A stretch of 64,000 nt of DNA from Winogradskyella haliclonae (GTDB lineage: Bacteria; Bacteroidota; Bacteroidia; Flavobacteriales; Flavobacteriaceae). A program made the translations under genes and the position numbers. Under the pieces are notes generated by a model that was given only the letters and a program-made list of their open reading frames with translations, did not search any database and was not told the origin of the DNA. The stretch spans positions 434,001-498,000 of the forward strand of contig NZ_BMDQ01000002.1 in the NCBI RefSeq assembly GCF_014635865.1. The letters run 5' to 3'. Of this stretch, positions 30,460 to 46,577 are shown in pieces (the first letter of the stretch is position 1; every line of letters begins with the position of its first letter).

Positions 30460-30789
30460 ATGGGATTAATTAAATCTGAAATATTTACAGACAATCAAAA
30501 CAAGATTTCTACTCTAGCAAAGGCTTTTGCACATCCGGCAAGAGTTGCAATCTTACAGCATATTTTTCAATCAAACTCGTGTATTTGTGGTGATTTGGTT
30601 GAAGAAATTGGCTTGGCACAATCCACTATATCTCAACATTTAAAAGAGTTAAAAAATATTGGATTAATTAAAGGAAATATTGAAGGTACAAGTGTTTGCT
30701 ATTGTATTGACAAAGACAATTGGTCCAATATGAAAAATACTATAAACGAATTTTTAAACCAAGATGCATTAGAGAATAACTGTTGTTAA
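30460..30789 (+). CDS. arsR: ArsR/SmtB-family metalloregulatory repressor
   Basis: 109-aa winged-helix repressor that releases DNA on binding As(III)/Sb(III). HTH region residues about 44-72 (DLVEEIGLAQSTISQHLKEL). Cys41-Ile-Cys43 sits at the start of the recognition helix region, as in As(III)-sensing ArsR (E. coli CVC motif), and VCYC near residue 85 and a terminal NNCC add more thiols. First gene of a four-gene operon with 12 bp to the next gene. A dyad overlapping the -7 box probably is its operator. Confidence 0.93.
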   Translation: MGLIKSEIFTDNQNKISTLAKAFAHPARVAILQHIFQSNSCICGDLVEEIGLAQSTISQHLKELKNIGLIKGNIEGTSVCYCIDKDNWSNMKNTINEFLNQDALENNCC

Positions 30790-30801
30790 AACCTATAAAT
30801 T

Positions 30802-31275
30802 ATGAAACTATCAGAAATAAAAACACACTTAGAACAACTTGAAACCATTGCGTTTAAGTTACCAAATGGCAACTTAGTACCAAGTCATTTTCACGTAACA
30901 GAAGTTGGTAAAATATCAAAAACATTTATTGATTGTGGTGGCACATTAAGACAAGAAAGTGTCATTAATTTTCAACTCTGGGAAGCTAATGATTATGACC
31001 ATAGATTGCACCCAGAAAAACTATTAAGTATTATCAATCTTTCTGAAGAAAAATTAGAATTGAAAGATGTAGAAATTGAGGTTGAGTACCAGTCAGATAC
31101 TATTGGAAAATATAGTTTAGGATATTCCGAAGGTAACTTTTTATTGCTATCTAAACAAACAGATTGTTTGGCAAAAGATAACTGCGGTATACCAGTTGAA
31201 AAACCAAAATTAAAACTTTCAGAACTACAAACTCAAGCCGCAGGATGTTGCTCTCCTGAATCTGGTTGTTGTTAA
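30802..31275 (+). CDS. DUF6428 family protein with Cys-rich C-terminus
   Basis: 157 aa, soluble, no signal peptide. It begins MKLSEIKTHLEQLETIAFKLPNG and has the SHFHVTEVGKISKTFIDCGGTLR block typical of DUF6428 proteins found in Bacteroidota arsenic operons. The last ~12 residues are AAGCCSPESGCC, four cysteines in two pairs, suggesting metal(loid) binding. Located between arsR and the phosphatase/arsenate reductase-like gene. Reaction unknown; a metallochaperone-like role is inference only. Confidence 0.85.
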   Translation: MKLSEIKTHLEQLETIAFKLPNGNLVPSHFHVTEVGKISKTFIDCGGTLRQESVINFQLWEANDYDHRLHPEKLLSIINLSEEKLELKDVEIEVEYQSDTIGKYSLGYSEGNFLLLSKQTDCLAKDNCGIPVEKPKLKLSELQTQAAGCCSPESGCC

Positions 31276-31292
31276 AACTTAATAAACCAATT

Positions 31293-31904
31293 ATGAACGA
31301 AAAACTAAATCAACTTATCGAAACGCTTGAGCTTTCTACAATATCAGAAGAAAGAAAAACGATACTTAACAAACTCGTAACGTTTATTCAATCAAAAAAA
31401 GACAAAGGCTTACCTGTAAACCTCAACTTTATTTGCACGCACAATTCACGTCGTAGTCATTTGTCTCAGATATGGGCACAAACCATGGCTCACAAATTCA
31501 AAATAGCAAATATATTTTGCTATTCTGGAGGAACAGAAGCTACTGCCATGTTTCCTTTCGTTGGTGACACTCTTAAAAAACAAGGATTTGAGATTCATAA
31601 ACTTTCAAACGAGGAGAATCCTGTATATGCTGTAAAATTTGCTGAAGACTTACTTCCTATTATCTGTTTTTCTAAGACTTTTGATGCAAATTTTAACCCC
31701 AAAACTAATTTTGCAGCAGTAATGACCTGTTCTCATGCTGATGAGAATTGTCCATTTATAGCCGGTGCTGAACAACGTATTCCTGTTAGGTATGAAGACC
31801 CCAAAGCATATGATAATACACCATTACAAGACGAAAAGTATACCGAACGAAGCCTGCAAATTGCTACCGAAATGAAATATATTTTTTCTAAAATCAAGTC
31901 ATAA
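31293..31904 (+). CDS. LMW protein-tyrosine-phosphatase-fold arsenate reductase-like protein
   Basis: 203 aa from ATG of MNEKLNQLIETLE, chosen over the upstream in-frame start at 31266 because that one overlaps the DUF6428 gene. The P-loop is CTHNSRR (Cys48-x5-Arg54), preceded by LNFI as in ArsC-type LMW phosphatases. The C-terminal part keeps PVRYEDPKAYDNTP near residues 170-183 (acid-base Asp region). The second P-loop cysteine seen in many thioredoxin-linked ArsC (CxGNSCR) is Arg here. In this operon it most likely reduces arsenate to arsenite (inference). It ends one base into the aquaporin ATG region. Confidence 0.88.
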   Translation: MNEKLNQLIETLELSTISEERKTILNKLVTFIQSKKDKGLPVNLNFICTHNSRRSHLSQIWAQTMAHKFKIANIFCYSGGTEATAMFPFVGDTLKKQGFEIHKLSNEENPVYAVKFAEDLLPIICFSKTFDANFNPKTNFAAVMTCSHADENCPFIAGAEQRIPVRYEDPKAYDNTPLQDEKYTERSLQIATEMKYIFSKIKS

Positions 31905-32572
31905 TGAAAAAAGAAATTAGTGAATTAATTGGCACTTTTGCTATGGTTTTTTGCGGTTGTGGCGCCATGACTATTAACGAAATTACAGGTGGAGACATTT
32001 CTCATGTAGGCGTAGCCATAACTTGGGGATTAATTGTAATGGCAATGATTTATGCATTTGGAGAGATTTCTGGTGCACACTTTAACCCTGCAGTAACAGT
32101 AGCATTTGCAGTTGCAAAAAAGTTTAATTGGAAATATGTACCAAGATATATTTTGTTTCAAATAGTCGGTGCTTTTTTAGCAATAGGAGTATTATGGTTT
32201 TTATTCCCCGATTCTACAAGTTATGGTCATACTTATCCAGCAGAAGGTTTCGAGCCTTATAAGGCTTTTATTCTAGAACTTATACTAACCTTCTTTCTAA
32301 TGGTGGTTATCATTAACGTTTCTACAGGTAGCAAAGAAATTGGTACCATGGCAGCAATTGCCGTAGGTGGAATTATTTTATTAGAAGCTATGTTTGCTGG
32401 ACCTATGACTAAGGCCTCGATGAATCCAGCGCGTTCAATAGCCCCTGCCATAATTTCAGGGAATTTACAGCATTTATGGCTGTACGTGACTGCTCCATTT
32501 ATTGGAGCAATTTTAGCAGTAATAAGCTGTAAACTTGTTAAAGATGACAACTGTTGTAATGAGGGCTGTTAA
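31904..32572 (+). CDS. MIP/aquaporin-family channel in arsenic operon (AqpS-like)
   Basis: 222 aa, six TM helices and two NPA half-helices: HFNPAVTVA (NPA 61-63) and MNPARSIAPA (NPA 174-176, with the selectivity-filter Arg177). In an ars operon without ArsB/Acr3, such channels (AqpS of Sinorhizobium meliloti is the known case) let arsenite made by ArsC flow out. The C-terminus is DDNCCNEGC, a cysteine-rich cytosolic tail not normal for aquaporins. It overlaps the phosphatase stop by one base. Confidence 0.9.
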   Translation: MKKEISELIGTFAMVFCGCGAMTINEITGGDISHVGVAITWGLIVMAMIYAFGEISGAHFNPAVTVAFAVAKKFNWKYVPRYILFQIVGAFLAIGVLWFLFPDSTSYGHTYPAEGFEPYKAFILELILTFFLMVVIINVSTGSKEIGTMAAIAVGGIILLEAMFAGPMTKASMNPARSIAPAIISGNLQHLWLYVTAPFIGAILAVISCKLVKDDNCCNEGC

Positions 32573-32600: not shown

Positions 32601-32652
32601 TGTTAAATTTTGTTTAACTATTTTATAATATAGTTAAACATTCTTATATTAG
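32601..32652 (+). promoter_or_regulatory. Composite operator/promoter A of the photolyase island (before the TetR gene)
   Basis: A perfect 10-bp inverted repeat TGTTTAACTA (32611-32620) / TAGTTAAACA (32631-32640) with a 10-bp AT spacer, preceded by an extra inverted half-site GTTAAA (32602-32607). Four bases after the right arm comes TATATTAG (32645-32652), close to the -7 consensus. The same arrangement with the same spacing occurs at 41167-41218. No TTTG lies at the normal -33 position, so activation or a special sigma factor may be needed. Confidence 0.7.
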
Positions 32653-32672
32653 CATTGTAAATTTATATTACA

Positions 32673-33329
32673 ATGGCTAAGAAAAAAACTATTTCAAAAT
32701 CAGATTTAATTACATTTTTTATGGATCATGTACTTATGCATGACCATAAACCAAAATCAGTGTATGCTTTTGCAAAAGCTCATAATTTTGATGAAGCTAA
32801 ATTTTACGAGCATTATGGTTCATTTGAGGCATTAGAACAATCGATTTTTAAAACTTTTTTTGATAATACGCATTCTATTTTAAACAAAAGCGAAGAATAC
32901 CAATCGTTTGATGCCCGTAACAAACTACTGAGCTTTTATTTTACGTTTTTTGAAAACTTAACTGCAAACCGAAGCTACGTTGTTTATGCATTAGGAAATC
33001 ATAAAGAACAGATGAAATCTCTTAAAACATTATCTCAATTAAAGAGTAGTTTCAATAACTACATAGAGCAATTAGGCATAAACATGCTTGATTTAAAACA
33101 AGACCGATTAGAAAAAATTCAAAATAGAGGTCTTAAGGAATCTACATGGCTTCAACTTTTAATCACCATAAAGTTTTGGTTAGACGATACATCACCTTCA
33201 TTTGAAAAAACAGACATATTTATTGAAAAATCAATAAATACAGGATTCGATTTAATTGATACTACGCCATTACAAAGCATTATAGATTTAGGCAAGTTTA
33301 TGATTAGGGAAAAAATAAGAATGAATTAA
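32673..33329 (+). CDS. TetR-family transcriptional regulator
   Basis: 218 aa. The N-terminal ~60 residues form a TetR-type HTH (KPKSVYAFAKAHNFDEAKFYEHYGSFEALEQSIFKTFF), and the rest is an all-helical ligand domain of a Bacteroidota type. First gene downstream of operator A and of the photolyase island, so it probably regulates itself and the genes after it. The next gene, an ABC1-family kinase, starts 4 bp later; a TetR-ABC1 pair suggests a membrane-lipid or quinone-linked signal, but the ligand is unknown. Confidence 0.8.
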   Translation: MAKKKTISKSDLITFFMDHVLMHDHKPKSVYAFAKAHNFDEAKFYEHYGSFEALEQSIFKTFFDNTHSILNKSEEYQSFDARNKLLSFYFTFFENLTANRSYVVYALGNHKEQMKSLKTLSQLKSSFNNYIEQLGINMLDLKQDRLEKIQNRGLKESTWLQLLITIKFWLDDTSPSFEKTDIFIEKSINTGFDLIDTTPLQSIIDLGKFMIREKIRMN

Positions 33330-33332
33330 TGC

Positions 33333-34643
33333 ATGAAAACAATAGACAGTATACCAATTACTAAAATATCTAGAGCAACAAAGCTCGTCTCAACAGGTGC
33401 AAAAGTTGGTGTAAACTATTTAAAATACTACGGTGATAAATTAGTAAATCCGGAAAAAGAAGCTAAAGAGCGTCTAAATAAAAACAATGCAGAAGACATA
33501 TACGATAGTCTGAAAAAGCTTAAAGGTAGTGCGCTTAAAGTTGCACAAATGCTAAGTATGGAAAAAAGCATTTTGCCTCAAGCTTATGTCGAAAAGTTTT
33601 CGCTATCACAATTTTCGGTTCCCCCATTATCACCCCCATTGGTGGTAAAAACTTTCAAAAACTATTTTGGAAAACATCCCGAAGATTTGTTCGATACTTT
33701 TAATGCAACCTCGGTTAACGCTGCCAGTATTGGTCAGGTCCACCTTGCAGAAAAGGATGGGAAAAAATTTGCTGTGAAAATTCAATATCCTGGGGTTGCA
33801 GAAAGTATTGCGTCAGATTTGGCTTTGGTAAAACCTATTGCCATCAAAATGTTTAACATCAAAGGAAAAGATTCGGATAAGTATTTTAAAGAAGTTGAAA
33901 ATAAACTAACCGAAGAAACTAATTACATCTTAGAAGTTGCACAAAGTAAAGCTGTTGTAAATGCCTGTAAACATATTCCTAATCTAGAATTTCCTGAGTA
34001 TTATGAAGAATTATCTTCTGAACGTATCATCACTATGGATTACATGAAAGGTGAACATCTTTCTGAATTTGTTGCGCACAACAAAGACCAAAATGTATCA
34101 AACAAATTAGGTCAAGCCCTTTGGGATTTTTATATGTTCCAAATTCACAACCTACGTAAAGTACATGCAGATCCTCATCCAGGAAATTTCCTGGTATCTA
34201 AAGAAGGTAAACTAATTGCTCTAGATTTTGGATGTATGAAAGCCATTCCTGATGATTTCTACATTCCCTATTTTGAATTAGCCAAAAAAGAAAGCATAGA
34301 AAACCCTAAGGTTTTTACAGAAAAACTATATGAATTAGAAATCTTACGTTCTGACGATTCTCCTGAAGAAATAGAATTCTTTAGCGCGATGTTCCATGAT
34401 TTGTTAAGTTTATTTACACAACCGTTTCATAACGAGACTTTCGATTTTTCGAATCCCGAATTCTTCAATAAAGTTGCAGAAATGGGACAACGCTACTCAA
34501 AAAGTACAGAGCTCAGAAAAATGAATGGTAATAGAGGCTCTACTCATTTCATTTACATTAACCGCACATTTTTTGGCTTGTACAATCTTATGTTTGACTT
34601 AAAAGCCGAAGACGTTAAGATTAATAATTTTATAAAACTTTAA
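33333..34643 (+). CDS. ABC1/AarF/UbiB-family atypical kinase
   Basis: 436-aa protein kinase-like fold. Family marks: KLKGSALKVAQMLSM (the KxGQ-like N-terminal motif, here K-x-A-Q) at residues about 50-64, the A-rich loop NAASIGQVHLAEKDGKKFAVKIQYPGV near 128-154 with the VAIK-type lysine, HADPHPGNFLV (catalytic loop) near 278-288, and ALDFGCMK (DFG). UbiB/ADCK proteins support quinone or other isoprenoid metabolism. Here it is inside the photo-protection island after a TetR regulator and overlaps the next gene by one base. Confidence 0.92.
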   Translation: MKTIDSIPITKISRATKLVSTGAKVGVNYLKYYGDKLVNPEKEAKERLNKNNAEDIYDSLKKLKGSALKVAQMLSMEKSILPQAYVEKFSLSQFSVPPLSPPLVVKTFKNYFGKHPEDLFDTFNATSVNAASIGQVHLAEKDGKKFAVKIQYPGVAESIASDLALVKPIAIKMFNIKGKDSDKYFKEVENKLTEETNYILEVAQSKAVVNACKHIPNLEFPEYYEELSSERIITMDYMKGEHLSEFVAHNKDQNVSNKLGQALWDFYMFQIHNLRKVHADPHPGNFLVSKEGKLIALDFGCMKAIPDDFYIPYFELAKKESIENPKVFTEKLYELEILRSDDSPEEIEFFSAMFHDLLSLFTQPFHNETFDFSNPEFFNKVAEMGQRYSKSTELRKMNGNRGSTHFIYINRTFFGLYNLMFDLKAEDVKINNFIKL

Positions 34644-35281
34644 TGGCAGCGTTTAGTATAGACGATATTAATGAGATGCATCATCTTTATCGCATCAATC
34701 TAATTAACAGTTGTTCTGGTTACAAATCTGCTAATCTTATAGGCACAAAAGATAAAGATGGCAATAGCAATGTTGCGATATTTAGTTCAATAACCCATCT
34801 AGGTTCTAATCCGGGTTTGCTTGGTGTTTTTATGAGGCCTACAACAGTAATTAGACACACCTATGATAATATTAAATCTACTGGGAAATACACTATTAAT
34901 CATATCCATGAAGGCATTATAGAAGACGCACACCATACTTCGGCTAAATATGCCAAATCGGTATCTGAGTTTGATGTTACCAAATTAGAAGAAGAATACA
35001 AGAATGAGTTCCCTGCACCATTTGTAAAAGGTTGTCCAATACAAATTGCAATGCAATACCAAGAGGAATATCATATTAAAGTAAACAATACCATTTTATT
35101 AGTAGGAAAAATTGAAAAACTTTATGTAGAAAATGAGCTTTTAGAAAAAGATGGGTTTATCAATTTGTCAAAAGGAAAAGTGGCAACTATAAATGGTCTT
35201 GATGCGTATGCCGTACCTGAATTGAAAACTAGATTAGAATACCAACGTCCTAAACAAGGATTTGCACATCGTGATGGCTGA
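34643..35281 (+). CDS. Flavin reductase-like domain protein
   Basis: 212 aa, FMN-binding split-barrel fold. Characteristic start YRINLINSCSGYKSANLIGTKDKDGNSNVAIFSS and the FMRPTTVIRHTYDNIKSTGKYTINHI segment of flavin reductase-like oxidoreductases that bind FMN. It could supply reduced flavin to neighbouring flavoproteins (four photolyase-family genes follow), which is inference. Overlaps the ABC1 gene by one base and precedes the DUF2867 gene by 19 bp. Confidence 0.88.
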   Translation: MAAFSIDDINEMHHLYRINLINSCSGYKSANLIGTKDKDGNSNVAIFSSITHLGSNPGLLGVFMRPTTVIRHTYDNIKSTGKYTINHIHEGIIEDAHHTSAKYAKSVSEFDVTKLEEEYKNEFPAPFVKGCPIQIAMQYQEEYHIKVNNTILLVGKIEKLYVENELLEKDGFINLSKGKVATINGLDAYAVPELKTRLEYQRPKQGFAHRDG

Positions 35282-35300
35282 ATTTTGAAGACTACAAACA

Positions 35301-36722
35301 ATGAAAATCTTACTTACCGGAACAACGGGTTATATAGCGAAGCGATTGGCACTTCAATTGCTCAAGGATAACCATGAGCTGGTTTGTTGTGTGAGAGATA
35401 TGGAGCGTATCCCGGATGAAATTGAAAAACATCCAAGATGCATTTTTATCAAAGTCGATTTTCTTAAACCTGATTTAGCCCGTATTGCAAAAGATATAGA
35501 TGCCGCTTATTACTTAATTCATTCCATGTCCACATCGGGTTCCGACTTTCAGGAATTAGAGAAAACGTGTGCCGAAAATTTTAAAAATTTAATCAACAAA
35601 ACCCAATGCAAACATGTCATCTATTTAAGTGGCATAGTCAATGACAATTCCTTATCAAAACATTTAAAATCAAGACTTCAAGTAGAGCATACTTTAAAAT
35701 CTAAAAAATATGCGCTCACAACTTTTAGAGCAGGAATTATTGTTGGTAGCGGTAGCGCTTCCTTTGAAATCATAAGAGATATTGTTGAGAAATTACCGTT
35801 AATGATTACTCCTAAATGGTTGAATACAAAAACCCAACCTATTGGTATAAGAGATGTATTAACTTACCTATCTAACGCACTCAGTAATGAAAAGCTCTAT
35901 AATAACTCTTATGATATTTTTGGTCCTGAAATATTGACCTACAAAGAAATGCTACTCCAGTTTGCTGAAGTTAGAGGTTTAAAACGCTACATCTATACAT
36001 TGCCTGTTTTAACACCTAAGCTATCTTCTTACTGGTTGTATTTTGTAACGTCTACTTCATTTCAACTGGCTGCTGCTTTAGTGGATAGTATGAAAGTCGA
36101 AGTTATCGGTAAAGACAGTGCTATCAATTTGCATATCGATATTAAACCTATGCCCTACAAAACAGCTGTTGATTTGGCATTTCAGAAAATACAGCAAAAT
36201 GCTGTGGTTTCTAGTTGGAAAGATGCAGTGAGTAGTGGTGTATTTAAAGATCAGTTATCAAAACACATAGAATTACCTCAATACGGATGCTTTAAAGATG
36301 TTCGCTCACGAGAAATAAAAGACGAAAACTATACAATAAACAAAATTTGGAGCATTGGTGGCAGAAATGGTTGGTATAGCTTTAATTTTCTATGGAAGTT
36401 AAGAGGTTATGTCGACAAACTTTTTGGCGGTGTAGGACTTAGACGTGGAAGAACTCACGACACTTATTTAGAAGCTGGTGATCCATTAGATTTTTGGCGT
36501 GTTCTATTTGCTGATAAGAACGAAAAACGATTGCTACTTTTTGCCGAAATGAAATTACCTGGTGAAGCCTGGTTAGAATTTAAAATAGTAAAAAACAAAC
36601 TCTATCAGCGTGCAGTTTTTAGACCAAAAGGGGTTTGGGGACGATTGTACTGGTACTCGGTATTACCATTTCATGCCTTTGTGTTTAAAGGGATGATAAA
36701 TGCCTTAGTTCATAAAAATTGA
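35301..36722 (+). CDS. NAD(P)-binding SDR-like protein with DUF2867 C-terminal domain
   Basis: 473 aa. N-terminal atypical/extended SDR: the dinucleotide motif LTGTTGYIAKRL at residues 4-15, a AAYYLIHSM strand and STSGSDFQELEKTCAENFKN helix. The C-terminal ~170 residues (from about 300) match DUF2867, with GGRNGWYSF and VGLRRGR and a hydrophobic end. Such two-domain proteins are frequent next to photolyases in marine Bacteroidota and Proteobacteria. Substrate unknown. DUF2256 follows after 3 bp. Confidence 0.9.
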   Translation: MKILLTGTTGYIAKRLALQLLKDNHELVCCVRDMERIPDEIEKHPRCIFIKVDFLKPDLARIAKDIDAAYYLIHSMSTSGSDFQELEKTCAENFKNLINKTQCKHVIYLSGIVNDNSLSKHLKSRLQVEHTLKSKKYALTTFRAGIIVGSGSASFEIIRDIVEKLPLMITPKWLNTKTQPIGIRDVLTYLSNALSNEKLYNNSYDIFGPEILTYKEMLLQFAEVRGLKRYIYTLPVLTPKLSSYWLYFVTSTSFQLAAALVDSMKVEVIGKDSAINLHIDIKPMPYKTAVDLAFQKIQQNAVVSSWKDAVSSGVFKDQLSKHIELPQYGCFKDVRSREIKDENYTINKIWSIGGRNGWYSFNFLWKLRGYVDKLFGGVGLRRGRTHDTYLEAGDPLDFWRVLFADKNEKRLLLFAEMKLPGEAWLEFKIVKNKLYQRAVFRPKGVWGRLYWYSVLPFHAFVFKGMINALVHKN

Positions 36723-36725
36723 AAA

Positions 36726-36878
36726 ATGCCTAAAGGAATAAAAAAACAACATCTGCCTCAAAAAGTATGTATTGCCTGCGAGCGACCTTTTAGCTGGCGT
36801 AAAAAATGGGAGAGAGACTGGGAAAACGTAAAATATTGTAGTGATAAATGCAAAAAACAAAAAGCAATACAAGTATAG
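36726..36878 (+). CDS. DUF2256 zinc-ribbon-like small protein
   Basis: 50-aa gene. Reads [22 protein letters not shown]... with four cysteines (CIAC at residues 15-18, C38 and C42), a typical small zinc ribbon. The conserved [22 protein letters not shown] block is the DUF2256 signature. DUF2256 genes are almost always beside cryptochrome/photolyase genes, as here: it overlaps the Cry-DASH start by 31 bp. Function unknown. Confidence 0.92.
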
Positions 36879-38155
36879 TTTGGTTTAGAAATGATTTACG
36901 AGTATACGATAATGCTGTATTGTATGAGGCTTGTAAAACTGGTAATAAGCTCATTGGCGTGTACTGTTTTGACCCAAAGCAGTACACAATAGATAAATAT
37001 GGTTTTAAAAGAACTGAAAAGTATAGAACGCGCTTTCTATTAGAGACCATTATTGATTTAAAGCAAAACCTTGATAAGTTAAACATAGACTTACTGGTTT
37101 ATAATGCAGCACCCGAAGATATTATTCCAAAGCTTGTTGAGGAGTTTAACGTAAGGGATATCTACTTTCAAACAGAATGGACACAAGAAGAATTAGATAC
37201 GGAGTATCTTGTTAAATCTAAATTGAAGAATGTCGATTTTAAGAGTGTATACAATCAGTTTTTATATCATCCTGAAGACATCAATTTTAAAATTCAAAAT
37301 CTTCCTCAAGTCTTTACTGTGTTTCGAAAAAAATTGGAGAAGTATCTCCCTATTAGAGAAGAGTTAGCGATTGAAAGACTGCCAAAATCAAATCGTGTTG
37401 AACACACTACGCAAATTCCAAGTTTACAAGATTTAGGCTTTGATAATTTTAAAACACACCCAAATTCAGCATTTCTCTTTAAGGGTGGAGAAACTGAAGC
37501 ACTGAATCGGTTAAAAGATTATTTCTTCACTACTAAAAAATTGGAGTTTTATAAAAAAACGCGTAACGGTTTGGTAGGTGTTGATTACAGCTCTAAATTT
37601 TCGCCATGGTTAGCAAATGGTAGTATTTCTGCAAGAACCATTTATCATCAAGTCAAACAATTTGAAAATAAATATGTAAAAAACCAATCGACATATTGGC
37701 TCATATTCGAATTAATTTGGCGCGATTATTTTAAATACGTTTCTCTAAAACATGGTCATCAAATTTTCAAACTAGAAGGCATTCTTAAAAAAGAATACGA
37801 CTGGAGTACAAATACAAATTTGATTGGCAAATGGCTTAACGGAGAAACCCAATCCGACTTTGTAAATGCCAATATGATTGAGCTCAAAGAAACCGGTTGG
37901 ATGAGCAATCGTGGACGCCAAAACGTGGCCTCGTATTTTGCCAAAGAGCTTAAGCTAGATTGGCGTATTGGTGCTGCATATTTTGAGTCACTCCTACTCG
38001 ACTATGACGTACACAGCAACTATGGCAATTGGATGTATGTGGCTGGTGTTGGCAATGACCCAAGAGATAGAAAGTTTAACGTAGACCTACAAGCCGAGCG
38101 CTACGACACTACCGGAAAGTTTAGACGTTTATGGTTACAACCCAGTCTATTTTAG
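36848..38155 (+). CDS. DASH-family cryptochrome / single-strand CPD photolyase
   Basis: 435-aa FAD photoreceptor. N-terminal antenna-binding alpha/beta domain ([13 protein letters not shown] at residues 10-22), then the FAD domain with [16 protein letters not shown] near 250-265, [38 protein letters not shown] and the DASH-specific [18 protein letters not shown] near 395-412. Cry-DASH proteins bind MTHF and FAD and repair CPD in single-stranded or loop DNA, some also signalling blue light. Its start overlaps DUF2256 and its stop is 2 bp before the next photolyase-family gene. Confidence 0.94.
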
Positions 38156-38157
38156 AA

Positions 38158-39645
38158 ATGAACATTAAAGACATACATATTGTATTCCCACATCAGCTCT
38201 TTAAAACCACAGCAGTTCTTGAGCGAGTAGACACAATTTATCTAGTTGAAGAATATCTGTTTTTTAATCAGTATAAATTTCATAAACAAAAAATAGCTTT
38301 CCACCGTGCAAGTATGAAAGCTTATGCTGATCATTTAAAAAGTAAACGTAAAACGGTTAAATATATAGAAGCTACTGATGAAAAAAGTGATGTTCGAAAA
38401 CTATTGCCATATCTAAAAGAAAAAGGCACTAGACTTATGCATATCATTGACCCAACAGATAATTGGCTAGAAAAGCATATTAATAATGCGTCAGGCGGGA
38501 TAGAAATCATCTGGCACAACAACCCGCTATTCATTAATTCGAAATGTGACTTATCGGTATTTTTTAAACCAACAAAAAAGAAATTCTTTCAAACCTCGTT
38601 TTACAAAAATGAACGTAAGAATCGAAATATTTTAATGAATGGCGATTCACCAGAAGGTGGAAAACTAACATTCGATTCTGAAAACCGAAAGAAATATCCA
38701 AAGGATAAAACTCCTCCAAATATTCAATTTCCGGATAAAACAGATTACCACAAGGACGCTGAGAATTATGTGCTTGATAATTTCCCAAATAATTATGGTG
38801 ACTTGAATGATTTTGTTGTTTATCCAATAGATTTTAAATCCGCTGAAGCCTGGTTAAAACAGTTTTTGGACTACCGCTTCCATGAGTTTGGTGTTTATGA
38901 AGATGCTATTGTCAAAGAAGAACATTTCTTAAACCATAGTTTGCTATCGCCACTAATAAATGTTGGGCTTTTACATCCAATGGAGGTTATTGATAAAGCC
39001 ATATCGTACGCCTATGCCAATGGTGTTCCTTTAAATTCTACAGAAGGATTTGTGCGTCAAATACTAGGCTGGCGCGAGTTTATTCGTGGTGTTTATGAGG
39101 CTAAAGGCACTGAGGAGCGCACAAAGAATTTCTGGAATTTTAACCGAAAGATTCCCAAATCATTTTATAAGGGTTCAACTGGTATTCAGCCCATTGACGA
39201 CGTCATCAAAAAAGTAAATAAAACCGCCTATGCCCATCACATTGAACGTTTGATGATACTAGGAAACTTTATGGTGCTTTGCGAGTTTAACCCTGACGAT
39301 GTATACCAATGGTTCATGGAATTATTTATTGATGCTTACGATTGGGTTATGGTACCTAATGTATACGGTATGAGCTTGTTTGCAGATGGTGGCTTAATGT
39401 CAACAAAACCTTATATAAGCAGTAGCAATTATATTATGAAAATGAGTAACTACGCTAAGGGCGAATGGCAAAAAACTTGGGATGGCTTATTCTGGACATT
39501 TATGGATAAACATCGTGACTTCTTTCTTAGTAACTCAAGATTAGGAATGCTGATAAGAACATTTGATAAAATGAAAATTGAAACAAAAGAAGCTCATATA
39601 AATAATGCCCGAATCTTTTTTGAAACACTAGATAATGACAACTAA
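38158..39645 (+). CDS. Prokaryotic (6-4)/FeS-BCP-type cryptochrome-photolyase, apparently without Fe-S cysteines
   Basis: 495 aa from ATG of MNIKDIHIVFPHQLF; an upstream start at 38131 would overlap Cry-DASH. The family fold is clear: PHQLF start, EGFVRQILGWREFIRGVYEAKG, AHHIERLMILGNFMVLCEFNPD, and YDWVMVPNVYGMSLFADGGLMSTKPYISSS (FAD/substrate region). Known members carry four Cys ligating a [4Fe-4S] cluster, including a CxxC-type segment just after the KPY...SNY helix. Here that segment reads NYAKGEWQKTWDGLFW with no Cys, and the whole protein has only two Cys. The predicted role is UV photoproduct repair or blue-light sensing. It overlaps the next gene by 11 bp. Confidence 0.9.
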   Translation: MNIKDIHIVFPHQLFKTTAVLERVDTIYLVEEYLFFNQYKFHKQKIAFHRASMKAYADHLKSKRKTVKYIEATDEKSDVRKLLPYLKEKGTRLMHIIDPTDNWLEKHINNASGGIEIIWHNNPLFINSKCDLSVFFKPTKKKFFQTSFYKNERKNRNILMNGDSPEGGKLTFDSENRKKYPKDKTPPNIQFPDKTDYHKDAENYVLDNFPNNYGDLNDFVVYPIDFKSAEAWLKQFLDYRFHEFGVYEDAIVKEEHFLNHSLLSPLINVGLLHPMEVIDKAISYAYANGVPLNSTEGFVRQILGWREFIRGVYEAKGTEERTKNFWNFNRKIPKSFYKGSTGIQPIDDVIKKVNKTAYAHHIERLMILGNFMVLCEFNPDDVYQWFMELFIDAYDWVMVPNVYGMSLFADGGLMSTKPYISSSNYIMKMSNYAKGEWQKTWDGLFWTFMDKHRDFFLSNSRLGMLIRTFDKMKIETKEAHINNARIFFETLDNDN

Positions 39646-41125
39646 AGAAACGATAAATGTAGTATGGTTAAAACGTGATTTAAGACTTCAGGACAATGAA
39701 GCAATTACTAATGCGTTGAAGTCTAATAAGCGAACACTACTACTCTATGTTTTTGAAAACATATTATTAAATGATAGTCATTACAGCGACCGCCATTTTA
39801 ACTTTATAAAGGAATCTATTAGAGATATAAACAATCAGTTGCAACCACATAACACCAAAGTACTAGCTATTAACTCAGATATTACAAGTGCTTTTAATAC
39901 AGTTCAAGAGCTTTATAAAATAGATACCGTTTTCTCTCATACTGAAACAGGAATTTTAGTCACTTATAATCGTGATAAAGAATTTAACCGCTATTGTAGA
40001 AACAACTTTATTAGATGGAAAGAAACTAAAAATAATGGTGTAGAGCGCGGTTTAGTCAATAGAGACAATTGGTTTGAAAATTGGGAAGACTATATGTCTC
40101 AAAATTTAGAGGTTTTTGAACCATCGCATAATCAATTCTTAAATTTAGAAGAAATTGCAAGCTTGGAAAGCCTTCTATCCGTTACTGACTTAACAACACC
40201 TATAGACGTTAGTTTTCAAAAAGGTGGCACAACAACTGGATGGAAATATGCCAACTCCTTTTTTGAAGACCGATATAAAGACTACATGTTCAACATATCA
40301 AAACCAGAAAATTCTAGAACAAGCTGTAGTCGTATATCTCCTTATATAGCTTGGGGCAATCTTTCTATTCGCCAAGTGTTTCAAAAAGGTAAAGCCCTAA
40401 AAGCAAAAAGTAAAGATAAAAGACATATTGGTGCTTTTTTATCGCGATTACGTTGGCAAGCTCATTTTATTCAAAAGTTTGAAATGGAGCATACTATGGA
40501 ACATGCCAGTGTAAATAAAGGTTACCATAAACTCAAAAAGCGTATTTCTAAAAATTACCAAACAGCTTGGAAGGAAGGTCAAACTGGATTTCCACTTGTA
40601 GATGCCAGTATGCGCTGTTTAATAGAGACTGGTTATGTTAACTTTAGAATGCGCGCCATGCTCGCCTCATTTTTTACACATATTTTATGGCAACCATGGC
40701 AAGCTGCTACCACACACCTATCCCAACAGTTTCTTGATTTTGAACCTGGTGTTCATTTTCCTCAATTACAAATGCAAGCAGGAGAAACAGGCATTAATAA
40801 CTTAAGAATATACAATCCAACAACAAATAGTCTAAAGTATGATGCTGATGCTACATTCATAAAAAAATGGGTTCCTGAGTTGGCTCACTTAGACATTCCC
40901 TTTATACACGAGCCTTATCTTATGACACCAATGGAATCTGCCTTTTACAATTTTGAGCTCGGTAGAGATTATCCTAAGCCCATTGTAGACATTAAAATAA
41001 ACCGCAAAAAAGCGAGTGATATTCTTTGGAATATGAAAAAAGACCCTGATGTTATTCGTGAAAGTTTTAGGATACTAAAACGACATACTATTAACGATAG
41101 AAATCGTATGCTCAGGTCTGATTAA
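39635..41125 (+). CDS. Divergent FAD-binding photolyase/cryptochrome
   Basis: 496 aa. N-terminal photolyase domain (NVVWLKRDLRLQDNEA), antenna-binding Rossmann fold, and FAD domain with CSRISPYIAWGNLSIRQVF near 230-248, LRWQAHFIQKFE, TGFPLVDASMRCLIETGYVNFRMR and LASFFTHILWQPW. Near residues 365-395 the usual DYDxxxNxGNWQW segment is replaced by FEPGVHFPQLQMQAGETG. The FAD-N5 Asn and last electron-transfer Trp of class I photolyases are therefore not where expected. Repair activity or a sensory role is open. Last gene of unit 1; about 100 bp without a gene follow. Confidence 0.87.
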   Translation: MTTKETINVVWLKRDLRLQDNEAITNALKSNKRTLLLYVFENILLNDSHYSDRHFNFIKESIRDINNQLQPHNTKVLAINSDITSAFNTVQELYKIDTVFSHTETGILVTYNRDKEFNRYCRNNFIRWKETKNNGVERGLVNRDNWFENWEDYMSQNLEVFEPSHNQFLNLEEIASLESLLSVTDLTTPIDVSFQKGGTTTGWKYANSFFEDRYKDYMFNISKPENSRTSCSRISPYIAWGNLSIRQVFQKGKALKAKSKDKRHIGAFLSRLRWQAHFIQKFEMEHTMEHASVNKGYHKLKKRISKNYQTAWKEGQTGFPLVDASMRCLIETGYVNFRMRAMLASFFTHILWQPWQAATTHLSQQFLDFEPGVHFPQLQMQAGETGINNLRIYNPTTNSLKYDADATFIKKWVPELAHLDIPFIHEPYLMTPMESAFYNFELGRDYPKPIVDIKINRKKASDILWNMKKDPDVIRESFRILKRHTINDRNRMLRSD

Positions 41126-41166
41126 TTGCTTCATCTACTATAAAAAAAATTGCAATCATAATTCTC

Positions 41167-41218
41167 TGTTAATTTTTGTTTAACTATTATTAAAAAAGAT
41201 TAAACATTTGTAATTTTG
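41167..41218 (+). promoter_or_regulatory. Composite operator/promoter B of the photolyase island (before unit 2)
   Basis: The first 20 bases (41167-41186) match 32601-32620 at 19 of 20 positions and include the left arm TGTTTAACTA. After the same 10-bp spacing comes AGATTAAACA (41197-41206; TTAAACA complements the left arm), then 4 bp and a perfect -7 box TAATTTTG (41211-41218). There is no TTTG at -33. Start codon 7 bp after the box, so the mRNA may be nearly leaderless or start further downstream. Confidence 0.7.
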
Positions 41219-41225
41219 AGGATAT

Positions 41226-41651
41226 ATGATATTGGATACAACTTATAATAGCAAAGAACACAAGCAACTAATAGCGGATTTGGTTGGTCCTGAATTTTCT
41301 TTGGTACAAAAGTTGAAGATGAATGGTGTGGGCAGTAAGCGCATGATAATTGATGAAGTAAGTCCAAACATGAAATCAATGATGAATTTGGTATCGGACA
41401 TTAATTATTCTAACATAGAATTACGACCAAAAGGTATATTATTAATGATAAACCAAGGACTAAAAAATTTTACATGGATAATTCCTTATTATCAATTGGT
41501 CATATACAAAACAAACGGTAGTAGCATACATGCACAAGGAAGATTTGTTCATTATAGAAATAACAAAACCTTTAAAGAAAATAAAAAGTTTTTTAACAAG
41601 CTTTTAAACGAAAAAGTAAAGTACGACATGGCACACACCATGCCCATGTAA
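41226..41651 (+). CDS. Unknown soluble protein, first gene of photolyase-island unit 2
   Basis: 141 aa, no signal peptide, mixed alpha/beta and basic. Segments such as LRPKGILLMINQGLKNFTWIIPYYQLVIYKTNGSSIHAQGRFVHYRNN suggest a PH-like or small beta-sandwich fold, but I recognise no family. It is directly under operator B, followed one base later by the DUF2805 gene, so it is expressed with folE and the photo-protection genes. Function unknown. Confidence 0.7.
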   Translation: MILDTTYNSKEHKQLIADLVGPEFSLVQKLKMNGVGSKRMIIDEVSPNMKSMMNLVSDINYSNIELRPKGILLMINQGLKNFTWIIPYYQLVIYKTNGSSIHAQGRFVHYRNNKTFKENKKFFNKLLNEKVKYDMAHTMPM

Positions 41652-41652
41652 A

Positions 41653-41925
41653 ATGGAATTAACAGAAATAGAAATAGACCGAATAATAGAAATGGCTTGG
41701 GAAGATAGAACAACCTTCGACGCTATTAAATTTCAGTTTGGTCTAAAAGAACAGGAAGTGATTACCCTGATGCGTCAAGAAATGAAACCAAGTAGTTTCA
41801 AAATGTGGAGAGCACGTGTGCAAGGTAGAGCTACAAAACATAGTAAAAAAAGAAATTTTGAAGAAGGCAGATTTAAATGCTCGAGACAAAAATCTATATC
41901 AAATAACTCTATATCAAAACGATAA
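41653..41925 (+). CDS. DUF2805 / TIGR03643 family protein
   Basis: 90 aa. Typical text ELTEIEIDRIIEMAWEDRTTFDAIKFQFGLKEQEVI followed by MRQEMKPSSFKMWRARVQGR, an HTH-like helical domain of the DUF2805/TIGR03643 family. Homologues are usually found beside cryptochrome or photolyase genes. The last ~25 residues are basic and low in complexity. Possibly a small DNA-binding protein (inference from HTH-like pattern). Confidence 0.9.
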   Translation: MELTEIEIDRIIEMAWEDRTTFDAIKFQFGLKEQEVITLMRQEMKPSSFKMWRARVQGRATKHSKKRNFEEGRFKCSRQKSISNNSISKR

Positions 41926-41982: not shown

Positions 41983-42675
41983 ATGGAAACAAAAACAATT
42001 CCCACAAAAAATGGTCATGCCTTAAACGGTTTCAGTATCGATGATATTGGTGATGACCATTTATTCACAAGTTTAGACACACCAATGAAGCCCAATGCTT
42101 TTGATATGTCTGACAAAGAAAAAAAAGAACGCATCTCTATATTATTTTCAGAAATCATGGATGTCTTAGGCTTAGACTTAACCGATGATTCTTTACAAGG
42201 AACTCCAGACCGAGTAGCTAAAATGTATGTAGAGGAAATATTTTCGGGTTTAGACCCAAAAAATAAACCTAAAGTGGCACTGTTTGATAATAAATATCAA
42301 TACAACCAAATGTTAGTCGAGAAGGATATTACCTTCTACTCTAACTGCGAGCATCATTTTGTACCAATCATAGGTAAAGCTCATGTCGCTTATATCTCTT
42401 CAGGTAAGGTCATAGGCTTATCAAAATTAAATAGAATCGTACAATATTATGCTAAACGTCCTCAGGTACAAGAACGTTTAACACAGCAAATCGCACACGA
42501 ATTAAAAACAGTTTTAGGTACAGAGGATGTCGCGGTTATTATAGATGCAAAACATTTATGTGTGTCATCTAGAGGCGTAAAAGATGATACGTCTGCAACC
42601 GTGACAACTTTTTATGGAGGCGCTTTTAATTCGCCAGAAAAAATTAATGAACTTCAAAATTATATAAACAGTTAA
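41983..42675 (+). CDS. folE: GTP cyclohydrolase I
   Basis: 230 aa. Converts GTP to 7,8-dihydroneopterin triphosphate, the first step to folates and pterins. Zinc ligands CEHH (in FYSNCEHHFVPI near residues 118-130) and the later Cys in HLCVSSRGV near 190; catalytic QVQERLT block and ATVTTFYGG end. The N-terminal ~40 residues are an extension. In this island it may boost 5,10-methenyl-tetrahydrofolate, the antenna cofactor of photolyases (inference). The chromosome may hold another folE copy; not visible here. A 75-aa gene follows after 2 bp. Confidence 0.96.
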   Translation: METKTIPTKNGHALNGFSIDDIGDDHLFTSLDTPMKPNAFDMSDKEKKERISILFSEIMDVLGLDLTDDSLQGTPDRVAKMYVEEIFSGLDPKNKPKVALFDNKYQYNQMLVEKDITFYSNCEHHFVPIIGKAHVAYISSGKVIGLSKLNRIVQYYAKRPQVQERLTQQIAHELKTVLGTEDVAVIIDAKHLCVSSRGVKDDTSATVTTFYGGAFNSPEKINELQNYINS

Positions 42676-42907: not shown

Positions 42908-43591
42908 ATGGGCAAGTATATTGTTGTAGGTGGCAGCAGAGGTATTGGTAATGCTATAGTAAATAACCTATTGGAAAACCATGACGTTATAAATCTAAGC
43001 CGTTCCGCTCCAGAAATTTCTCATGAGAATCTCACGCATCATGATTGCGATGTCCTTTCTGATGAGCTCCCCCAAATTTCTGGAGCAGATGGCTTAGTGT
43101 ATTGTCCTGGAAGCATTAATCTAAAGCCAATAAATCGACTTAAAGTCGAAGATTTTAGAGATGATTTTGAAATCAATGTCATTGGTGCTGTAAAAACTGT
43201 TCAGGCTTATTTACCAATTTTAAAGGAAGGCAAAAATCCATCAGTCCTACTTTTTAGTACTGTGGCTTCAGATTTAGGAATGCCATTTCATGCTTCAGTA
43301 GCAGCTTCAAAATCAGCTGTAGAAGGCTTAACAAAATCTCTTGGAGCAGAATTAGCACCAACTATTCGTGTGAATGCAATTGCACCTACGGTTACTGATA
43401 CAGATTTAGCTTCAAAATTATTGCGCAATGATCGGATGATAGAAAATATGAAAGAACGCCATCCGCTTAAAAAATATTTACAACCACAAGAAGTTGCGGA
43501 TATGGCTACATTTTTACTTTCTGATAAAGCTGCGGCTTTATCTGGTCAAGTCTTTAAAATGGATTGTGGGATAACTAGTTTCAAAATATAA
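42908..43591 (+). CDS. SDR-family protein with missing catalytic tyrosine
   Basis: 227-aa classical SDR. Nucleotide motif VVGGSRGIGNAI at residues 6-17, a VYCPGSI (N-A-G-like) strand, Ser117 in LLFSTVAS, and Lys135 in the YxxxK region. The expected Tyr four residues before the Lys is Val131 (HASVAASK), so normal hydride-transfer chemistry is doubtful, unless it uses another residue. The C-terminus has typical PTVTDTDLA and PQEVADMATFLLSDKAAALSGQVF. In an operon between the 75-aa gene and GPx; substrate unknown. Confidence 0.85.
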   Translation: MGKYIVVGGSRGIGNAIVNNLLENHDVINLSRSAPEISHENLTHHDCDVLSDELPQISGADGLVYCPGSINLKPINRLKVEDFRDDFEINVIGAVKTVQAYLPILKEGKNPSVLLFSTVASDLGMPFHASVAASKSAVEGLTKSLGAELAPTIRVNAIAPTVTDTDLASKLLRNDRMIENMKERHPLKKYLQPQEVADMATFLLSDKAAALSGQVFKMDCGITSFKI

Positions 43592-44316: not shown

Positions 44317-44781
44317 ATGAAAAAGATCTACTTTTTTATACTCTTTCTAGTTATAAATTTTGGAGGCCTTGCGCTTGGTAGCTGGCTCATGGATGGGGGC
44401 TCAACAGGAGATTGGTACAACAATCTTAACAAAGCACCATGGACACCACCTGGTTGGGTTTTTGGAGCCGCATGGACTACAATTATGCTTTGTTTTTCTT
44501 GGTATCTTGTAGAGCTTTTTCATTTGAGAGCTTCAAAATTCTTGTGGGCACTCTATGGATTTCAGGTCTTGCTTAACGTAAGTTGGAATTGGGTGTTCTT
44601 TAATCAGCACTTAATGCAAATGGGGTTAGTTATTATAATTCTCTTAACCTTAGTCATTTTCTACTATTTTATCACCTTCAGAAATGAGCGTTTAAAGAAT
44701 TTTAAATACTTACTACTTCCCTATTTAATTTGGTTGTGCATTGCCACATCACTCAATGCCTATATCGTGCTTAATAACTAG
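44317..44781 (+). CDS. tspO: TspO/MBR-family tryptophan-rich sensory protein
   Basis: 154 aa, five TM helices. Family marks: KAPWTPPGWVFGAAWT (residues about 41-56), MLCFSWYL, LNVSWNWVFFNQH near 88-100, and LIWLCIATSLNAYIVLNN at the end. TspO binds porphyrins or other tetrapyrroles and is linked to light and oxidative stress control in bacteria. Here it is inside the photolyase island, matching that role. It starts one base after the coiled-coil protein stop. Confidence 0.95.
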   Translation: MKKIYFFILFLVINFGGLALGSWLMDGGSTGDWYNNLNKAPWTPPGWVFGAAWTTIMLCFSWYLVELFHLRASKFLWALYGFQVLLNVSWNWVFFNQHLMQMGLVIIILLTLVIFYYFITFRNERLKNFKYLLLPYLIWLCIATSLNAYIVLNN

Positions 44782-44809: not shown

Positions 44810-45280
44810 ATGAAAATATATACACTCCACAAAAAGCAAAATCTGCCAATAACAAAAGAAGACGCGTGGGCGTTTCTTTCTAGTCCAAAAAATCTAAAAA
44901 CCATCACACCAGATTATATGGGGTTTCATATCTTATCTGGGGCAGACAGGCCAATGTTTCCTGGGCAAATCATTCAGTATATAGTCACACCAGTTTTAGG
45001 GATAAAAACAAAATGGGTCACAGAAATAACACACGTTAAAGACCACGAATATTTTGTTGATGAGCAACGTTTTGGACCCTATGCTCTCTGGCATCATAAA
45101 CATTTTATAAAGGAAATAGATGGTGGTATTGAGATGGAAGACATCATAGATTATAAAATCCCTTTTGGTATCTTAGGGCAATTAGTACATCCAATATTGG
45201 TAAAACCCAAATTAGAAGAAATATTCAATTATAGAACAACCAAATTAGAAGAATTATTTGGCAAGTATGAAAACCCTTGA
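44810..45280 (+). CDS. SRPBCC (START/Bet v1-like) ligand-binding protein
   Basis: 156 aa. Typical SRPBCC order: IYTLHKKQNLPITKEDAWAFLSSPKNLKTITPDYMGF at the start, then beta strands with DHEYFVDEQRFGPYALWHHKHFIKEIDGGIEMEDIIDYKIPFG, and the C-terminal long helix. This subgroup (cell division inhibitor-like) often accompanies photolyases and DUF2867 proteins. Ligand unknown. The downstream photolyase begins inside its last codons (14-bp overlap). Confidence 0.9.
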   Translation: MKIYTLHKKQNLPITKEDAWAFLSSPKNLKTITPDYMGFHILSGADRPMFPGQIIQYIVTPVLGIKTKWVTEITHVKDHEYFVDEQRFGPYALWHHKHFIKEIDGGIEMEDIIDYKIPFGILGQLVHPILVKPKLEEIFNYRTTKLEELFGKYENP

Positions 45281-46577
45281 AAAAGTAAATGTATTTTGGT
45301 TTAGACGCGATTTAAGGCTCGATGATAATGTAGGCCTTTATCATGCACTTAATAGTCATTTACCCGTTTTACCAATTTTTATTTTTGATACTGAAATATT
45401 GAACAAGCTTCCAAAAAAGGATGCTAGAGTCAGCTTCATACACCATACATTACAAAGCTTAAGAAACACACTGCAACAAGACTATCAAAGTAGTTTGGCC
45501 ATGTACAATGGCAAACCTATTGACGTGTATAAACAATTGGTTAATACGTATGACATAGAAACTGTATTTACCAACCATGATTATGAGCCTTATGCCAGAA
45601 CCCGTGATACAGAGATTTCAGAATTTTTATCATCAAATGCTATAGCATTTAAAACGTATAAGGACCAAGTTATTTTTGAAAAGGACGACGTTGTAAAAAA
45701 GGACGGCAATCCATATGTGGTTTACACACCTTATTCTCGCATGTGGAAAGAAACTTTTAAAACAATAGATTTTAAAATTTATGATTCTGAGTCCTTATTA
45801 AGGCATACGATTTCAGATTCTGACTTACCAAACTTAAGTCTATCTGATATTGGTTTTGAAGAAAGTTCTCAGGAGATAAAACCTTATAATGTATCGCCTA
45901 AACGCATTCAAGACTACGAAGCCACCAGAAATTTTCCTGCGATGGACAACACATCACGTCTTGGACCGCATTTGCGCTTTGGCACTGTAAGCATCCGTAA
46001 AATGATGCAAAAAGCCATGGCAGAAGAGAATGACACATTTATGAAAGAGCTTATTTGGCGCGAATTCTTTATGCAAATTCTTTGGCATTTTCCGCATACA
46101 AAAAACCAATCATTCAAGGCCAAATACGACCGGATACAATGGCGTAACAATGCAGAGGAATTTAAAAAATGGTGCGATGGACAAACTGGTTATCCTCTAG
46201 TAGATGCTGGTATGCGTCAATTAAACGAAACCGGCTTTATGCATAATCGAGTGCGCATGCTTGTAGGCAGTTTTTTATGCAAACATTTACTCATCGATTG
46301 GCGCTGGGGCGAAGCCTATTTTGCAGAGAAATTGCACGATTACGATATGTCTAGCAATGTTGGCAATTGGCAATGGGTTGCTGGCTCTGGTGTTGATGCT
46401 GCGCCATATTTTAGAATTTTTAATCCTACCTCGCAAATTTTAAAGTTTGACAAGCAATTGGCTTACATCAAAAAATGGGTACCAGACTTTCAAGAGCTAA
46501 CGTATCCGCAACCAATGGTAGATCACAAAACAGCTAGAGAACGTTGTTTAGAAACCTATAAAAGTGCTCTAAACTAG
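45267..46577 (+). CDS. phrB: Class I CPD deoxyribodipyrimidine photolyase
   Basis: 436 aa from ATG of MKTLEKVNVFWFRRDLRLDDN; an earlier in-frame TTG (45258) is rejected. Repairs cyclobutane pyrimidine dimers with blue light using FAD and an antenna. Antenna domain residues 1-135; FAD domain with TSRLGPHLRFGTVSIRKMM, ELIWREFFMQILWHFP, TGYPLVDAGMRQLNETGFMHNR, LIDWRWGEAYFAEKLHDYDMSSNVGNWQWVAGSG (N5 Asn and Trp present) and PYFRIFNP. The fourth photolyase-family gene of the island and its last gene; a terminator follows at 46683. Confidence 0.96.
   Translation: MKTLEKVNVFWFRRDLRLDDNVGLYHALNSHLPVLPIFIFDTEILNKLPKKDARVSFIHHTLQSLRNTLQQDYQSSLAMYNGKPIDVYKQLVNTYDIETVFTNHDYEPYARTRDTEISEFLSSNAIAFKTYKDQVIFEKDDVVKKDGNPYVVYTPYSRMWKETFKTIDFKIYDSESLLRHTISDSDLPNLSLSDIGFEESSQEIKPYNVSPKRIQDYEATRNFPAMDNTSRLGPHLRFGTVSIRKMMQKAMAEENDTFMKELIWREFFMQILWHFPHTKNQSFKAKYDRIQWRNNAEEFKKWCDGQTGYPLVDAGMRQLNETGFMHNRVRMLVGSFLCKHLLIDWRWGEAYFAEKLHDYDMSSNVGNWQWVAGSGVDAAPYFRIFNPTSQILKFDKQLAYIKKWVPDFQELTYPQPMVDHKTARERCLETYKSALN

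Follow-up and report, generated by a model that had tools for sequence, protein, structure and literature searches.

According to the accessible part of PMC9304148, the photoreceptor CarH binds as adenosylcobalamin-bound oligomers to TnnACA repeats over promoter elements, repressing in the dark and being released in the light. For Pseudomonas, the accessible part of PMC9758184 describes class II LitR regulators (PplR1, PmlR2) controlling photolyase, cryptochrome-like and folE genes. In this study, we analysed a stretch of 64,000 bp from Winogradskyella haliclonae (contig NZ_BMDQ01000002.1, positions 434,001–498,000; the window), in which one composite element is located ahead of both units of a photolyase island. 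Based on comparisons within 68 genomes of Winogradskyella (genus set) and 299 genomes of Flavobacteriaceae (family set), this element probably serves as operator for a B12 photoreceptor of the CarH type, which would repress in darkness and release the DNA in the light. We lean slightly towards a wider interpretation, namely a Flavobacteriaceae-wide B12 photoreceptor regulon acting via an undescribed inverted CarH operator, plus a recoding of this operator in one lineage (I26K, T-to-C in both arms, promoters together); its content would be photolyases, pterin cofactor synthesis, ABC1 kinase, fasciclin and carotenoids. No CarH operator in Bacteroidetes was reported in titles and abstract openings of the literature searched, which was mostly without subscription papers.

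Two copies of the element and their conservation

An earlier note on this DNA had claimed that 32601–32620 (TGTTAAATTTTGTTTAACTA) and 41167–41186 (TGTTAATTTTTGTTTAACTA) are nearly identical, which holds at 19/20 positions with base 7 as the sole difference. The common architecture with equal spacing that it described was found as well, both copies continuing with N13-TTAAACA (N10-NNNTTAAACA in its notation), 4 bp and a -7 box, whose consensus we take to be TAnnTTTG, and no TTTG representing a -33 element was present 19–21 bp ahead of the -7 box at either site. In full, the element reads TGTTAA(A/T)TTT-TGTTTAAC-N14-(G/A)TTAAACA, 4 bp and the -7 box, and precedes a TetR-led unit and a FolE/photolyase unit. 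In terms of half-sites, both copies revealed TGTTAA, TGTTTA 10 bp on and an inverted TAAACA 24 bp beyond, with a core of TGTTTAAC-N14-RTTAAACA. The known CarH half-site TnnACA (reverse TGTnnA; PMC9304148, in part) fits TGTTAA, TGTTTA and TAAACA in both sites, and TAGACA too.

32601..32606, + strand: site 1, arm 1 (TGTTAA), optional, 10 bp direct repeat with arm 2; GTTAA present in 63/80 named TetR loci
32611..32640, no strand: site 1, core dyad TGTTTAAC-N14-GTTAAACA, proposed CarH operator (conservation; symmetric change in the K26 clade)
32645..32652, + strand: site 1, -7 promoter box TATATTAG, 4 bp past the dyad (sequence, spacing)
41167..41172, + strand: site 2, arm 1 (TGTTAA; sequence)
41177..41206, no strand: site 2, core dyad TGTTTAAC-N14-ATTAAACA, proposed CarH operator (sequence, conservation)
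41211..41218, + strand: site 2, -7 promoter box TAATTTTG (sequence, spacing)

Judged from window statistics alone, the repeat is only suggestive: 15 same-strand 20-mer pairs were at least 19/20 identical, compared with 0–6 in 10 Markov surrogates, and the four matches to the 30-base part at up to three mismatches were reached by 15/100 shuffles and are not significant. The strength of the case is the comparison between genomes. In the genus set, the three-arm pattern was searched with at most one mismatch and with the reversed pattern as control. The genome of W. haliclonae revealed two perfect matches and none at one mismatch, and the pattern was detected in 66/68 genus genomes, usually as two sites about 2–10 kb apart, the control giving 0–2 matches per strand, mostly 0. 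The arms are fixed in the consensus of 30 site-1 and 20 site-2 copies, and the gap between TTAAACA and the -7 box, counted from copies with at most one mismatch only, was 5 bp in 25/30 and 4 bp in 5/30 copies of site 1 and 5 bp in 15/20 and 4 bp in 5/20 copies of site 2. In window terms (32602–32618 vs. 41168–41184), the base after GTTAA in arm 1 is mostly A at site 1 and T at site 2, a nearly fixed difference since it is kept in most copies, with exceptions among the genus copies.

In the island regions read, site 1 is located before tetR and site 2 before the gene for a 141-amino-acid (aa) protein or another head gene of unit 2. The core dyad reached at least 15/16 ahead of tetR in 80/80 named TetR loci, mostly 59–63 bp before the start codon; in random 200-bp windows of the same loci it did so in 10/180 draws, a control that is not clean because some draws were the sites themselves. 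At up to two mismatches, no site was found ahead of tetR in L108 or ahead of the 141-aa gene in L123, L124 and L136, and in L122 and L125 both units are fused behind a single site. Altogether, the proposal of a shared regulator acting where polymerase binds is supported.

Operator arms and the CarH-like MerR protein

As one candidate, the earlier note had named a MerR/CarH-like light sensor encoded elsewhere, and this fits: the genome of W. haliclonae harbors two MerR_1 proteins, one of which (L097:820-1722, 300 aa) precedes a crtI-like gene. This protein displays an N-terminal MerR helix-turn-helix (HTH) domain (PF13411, E 4.7e-15) and a B12-binding_2 helix bundle (PF02607, E 3.8e-9) with GxxW as GLLW and EH in AHEHF. 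Among the motifs named for such proteins in the accessible part of PMC11796333 (GxxW, EH, GxxH, GxxxP), it possesses GxxW, EH and GxxxP (GQSVP), with the His kept in EIHELG. Its predicted structure (mean predicted local distance difference test, pLDDT, 88.6) best matched Thermus CarH chains in the PDB (E 2.3e-13, 5c8f), including the cobalamin-binding domain of TtCarH (TMt 0.85, 9s0h_B), and the best PDB sequence match was 3whp (3.7e-14). A CarH-like MerR was detected in 268/299 family genomes and in 66/68 genus genomes; in the genus set, the G008 match is just a fragment, and G022 and G028 gave none. In 22 MerR sequences the recognition helix is nearly invariant (conservation 0.98) and the B12 part scored 0.69, compared with 0.80–0.83 for the HTH and 0.80 for the C-terminal part in 21 TetR sequences, a rough comparison of different samples. 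The carH promoter itself carries TTTTTGTTTAA in 29/30 and TGTTTAAACA in 16/30 loci.

The arms of the element differ with the recognition helix of this protein. In the family set, 23 genomes revealed a divergent best MerR match (E 1e-41 to 1e-50), 18 with K26 and five weak-class genomes without K; the remaining 276 are the others of the scan below. The 18 K26 genomes read HTLRKW for the usual HTIRIW, i.e., I is replaced by K at recognition-helix position 26. Their three-arm matches included no core T-type site, three genomes having one non-core match each, and the counterpart of the TGTTTAAC dyad (T-type) is a TGTCTAAC dyad (C-type), TGTCTAAY-N14-RTTAGACA. Upstream of tetR in G125, G314, G315 and G379, this dyad is TGTCTAAT...GTTAGACA, with both arms symmetrically changed, and G127 has C-type arms there with a spacer one base longer. 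Where the helix was known and the upstream dyad scored 15/16 or more, the left arm had C in 7/7 K and 0/28 I regions and the right arm in 6/7 K and 2/28 I regions. The exact C-type pattern occurred in 13/299 family genomes, namely 11/18 with K26, 0/5 of the weak-class genomes without K and 2/276 others (G209, G109).

C-type sites also lie about 55–140 bp upstream of merR in five K26 genomes (G246, G261, G119, G278, G231). The divergent gene across this site is crtI-like in G246 and, by eye, fasciclin-like in G261, G119 and G231, and no TetR match was obtained in G246, G261, G119 and G278. Further C-type sites precede an ABC1-headed unit (G231), an SDR-DUF2867 gene (G368), an MnmA-like gene named by eye (second site of G368), a fasciclin-like gene, also by eye (G286), and a short gene (second site of G379). 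The sites of G209 are next to a PTPS-like gene followed by FolE and next to the 75-aa island gene; the site of G109 is near none of the island genes used as queries. An earlier impression that genomes of the weak MerR class lack sites, from the three-arm scan at up to one mismatch, was overturned, their tetR upstream regions carrying C-type arms. Among 16 low-scoring K26 upstream regions, 14 were SRPBCC upstreams, mostly inside an operon, and the two TetR ones belong to G127, with its longer spacer and a start set late, and G103.

Several observations weigh against a CarH-type operator. Since all K26 rows of the MerR tree form a single group of 18 (support 89/90), with the I26 genomes G112 (T-type) and G306 (mixed) just outside, there was one I-to-K/T-to-C switch and not many; the covariation is one evolutionary event seen in many genomes. 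Mixed arms occur in G306 and G184 (I26, one C arm) and in G286 (K26, one T arm), no dyad was found ahead of tetR in K26 genome G103, and I26 genome G029 has only a degraded dyad (score 14) and no full site there. Co-presence of CarH says little because CarH is found in 268/299 family genomes. Sites without an intact CarH match are known from G008 (no TetR, CarH fragment only), G022 and G028 (78% and 83% complete, both with TetR) and G303 (near-core dyad of 15/16, 91% complete), and G077 (73% complete) possesses CarH and the SRPBCC gene but no site. As for the protein, PF02310 (B12-binding) gave no match at E 0.01, and GxxH reads NEIH, with the His kept. The carH promoter of Winogradskyella contains related elements but no full dyad, and the known CarH operators (Thermus thermophilus, Bacillus megaterium) are built differently, from 11-bp direct repeats in tandem, three or four in number.

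Genes of the two units and further sites

Annotation of the island by Pfam scan and, in unit 2, by eye revealed the following genes:

32673..33329, + strand: unit 1, first gene, TetR-family protein (TetR_C_23; PF17931; model with HTH helices), proposed target
33333..34643, + strand: unit 1, ABC1 (UbiB-like) kinase (Pfam scan)
34643..35281, + strand: unit 1, flavin-reductase-like protein (Pfam scan)
35301..36722, + strand: unit 1, SDR-type protein with DUF2867 (Pfam scan)
36848..38155, + strand: unit 1, DNA photolyase/cryptochrome (Pfam scan)
38155..39645, + strand: unit 1, photolyase-related protein, DPRP (Pfam scan)
39635..41125, + strand: unit 1, photolyase/cryptochrome (Pfam scan)
41226..41651, + strand: unit 2, first gene, 141 aa protein (no Pfam match; behind site 2 in most islands read)
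41653..41925, + strand: unit 2, DUF2805 protein (Pfam scan)
41983..42675, + strand: unit 2, GTP cyclohydrolase I, FolE (Pfam scan)
42908..43591, + strand: unit 2, short-chain dehydrogenase (by eye; synteny)
44317..44781, + strand: unit 2, TspO/MBR-like protein (by eye; synteny)
44810..45280, + strand: unit 2, SRPBCC-like protein (by eye; heads the unit in several TetR-negative genomes)
45267..46577, + strand: unit 2, photolyase (by eye; synteny)

Directly ahead of site 1 (window 30460–32572), an arsenic-type group was recognized by eye, with ArsR-like, 157-aa, arsenate-reductase-like and MIP-like channel genes; a MIP-like gene lies upstream of the site in several other genomes too. The genes for TetR and the ABC1 kinase (window 32673–34643) adjoin also in four order-level relatives (L132–L135; TetR identity 38–54%), which suggests a functional pair. 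A search of TetR against plasmids gave no match.

A genome scan had been expected to reveal sites before other light-induced genes. Further matches do exist, but at up to three mismatches they were few, amounting to four full dyads: the island pair, one at a fasciclin gene and one at GLPGLI/Porph_ging. The fasciclin dyad (L004:1501-1530, C3:338969-338998) lies 37 bp ahead of its gene (Fasciclin, E 4.3e-47), overlaps the start of a divergent frame and has no obvious -7 box at the island spacing. In at least seven other family genomes read, a site of this type is likewise followed by a fasciclin or fasciclin-like gene, so the lipoprotein seems to belong to the light regulon. The last dyad (L003:1501-1530, C1:117625-117654) is located between an outer-membrane-barrel-like gene and the GLPGLI/Porph_ging gene. 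G012, considered as a test case, was dropped, as it possesses CarH but TetR, site and SRPBCC gene were all unmatched, so that its island looks lost.

Mechanism, alternatives and known systems

In the mechanism that we favour, the CarH/LitR-type MerR protein with its predicted B12-binding domain (L097:820-1722) would read the element, its recognition helices contacting the half-sites TGTTTA and TAAACA. These form a wide inverted dyad, which occupies the position of a -33 element and lies 4–5 bp ahead of the -7 box. Without light, adenosylcobalamin-bound CarH would sit on the dyad and block polymerase at both promoters; in the light, the B12 bond would be broken and CarH would leave, so that both units may be expressed together, among them the genes for FolE, the ABC1 kinase, the TspO-like protein, TetR, three photolyases/cryptochromes and a related protein. 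That the units are operons, and CarH binding, its oligomer state, dark repression and light release, we infer.

The same protein might bind but activate by MerR-type underwinding, with an activator-dependent promoter that has no -33 element. Neither of the two promoters in the window has TTTG at -33, and the DNA upstream of the -7 box lies within the dyad, as is the case for MerR activators. This is unlikely: where CarH proteins have been characterised, they repress in the dark and overlap promoter elements (PMC9304148, in part), and for class II LitR, illumination weakens DNA binding by way of a LOV protein (PMC9758184, in part). A third regulator or an alternative sigma factor reading the element is more doubtful still. 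The element is promoter-bound with fixed spacing, and G008, G022, G028 and G303 keep the site without an intact CarH match, but such a factor would have to imitate how MerR residue 26 and both arms changed together, and also the C-type sites before merR itself.

The adjacent TetR, the other candidate of the earlier note, is disfavoured: photolyase and fasciclin genes are preceded by the site in genomes without a TetR match too, and the arms differ with the MerR helix. TetR matches were obtained in 39/60 genomes of the first search, W. haliclonae included, and in 219/299 family genomes, and the best ones with a species name came from Winogradskyella. In TetR-negative genomes, core sites are located upstream of photolyase units headed by SRPBCC or TspO (G204, G268, G181 and G100) and, in G213, G257 and G302, ahead of a fasciclin gene. 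Each of these seven gave a CarH-like MerR match, which in G181 was confined to residues 99–299 (B12 part). Two more fasciclin cases, L242 and L245, were found by eye though missed by tblastn. In L168–L197, listed without hand-picking, 17/19 rows with core sites and 0/13 with non-core sites were before regulon genes, two places being counted on both strands; including L226–L245 the core figure is 31/37, which is partly selected because these were hand-picked for core-like or puzzling strings.

Autoregulated TetR systems have a site directly before tetR, as do 80/80 named loci; GTTAAA-N5-TTTAAC is a palindrome of TetR size, the predicted TetR model keeps its HTH helices, and in the incomplete genomes G022 and G028, the site and TetR occur without a CarH match. 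An autoregulatory TetR operator would be confined to genomes with TetR, but sites of both arm types precede regulon genes in TetR-negative genomes, and the position before tetR seemed to favour TetR binding only as long as these genomes were not considered. Moreover, arm type tracks the MerR helix, four TetR-negative genomes have C-type sites upstream of merR, 17/80 TetR loci are without arm 1, which the TetR-size palindrome needs, and G142 and G341 possess TetR (59%, 53%) with neither a CarH match nor a dyad ahead of it. Binding of both sites by TetR, with repression of its own operon together with unit 2 and release by a small ligand, is the least probable explanation, and TetR is probably a target rather than the binder.

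If CarH is the reader, DNA photorepair in marine Bacteroidota would have a named light sensor and be tied to vitamin B12 supply, the role of B12-type CarH would reach beyond carotenoids, and the K26 lineage would represent a natural switch of the operator code, involving a single residue and one base pair in each arm.

In comparison with known systems, the protein resembles CarH of T. thermophilus and B. megaterium in its MerR domain and predicted B12 domain with GxxW, EH, lower His and GxxxP, and the locus in its TnnACA half-sites, an operator over promoter elements and a crt gene nearby. In contrast to their tandem repeats, the present site combines a wide inverted dyad and an optional extra arm at 10 bp, the third arm being inverted 24 bp further, and, unlike theirs, its proposed target genes are those for photolyases, pterin synthesis and fasciclin proteins. 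The operator of Myxococcus CarA shares inverted repeats overlapping the promoter (PMC9304148, in part), but CarA, unlike the proposed regulator, is B12-independent and needs CarS. Photolyase, cryptochrome-like and folE targets are shared with class II LitR, as are two hexamers of the TGTnnA/TnnACA type (there TGTACA-N12-TGTACA). According to the same excerpt (PMC9758184), class II does not bind B12 and acts together with a LOV protein, whereas the present protein retains most B12 motifs and its proposed half-sites, TGTTTA...TAAACA, are separated by N18.

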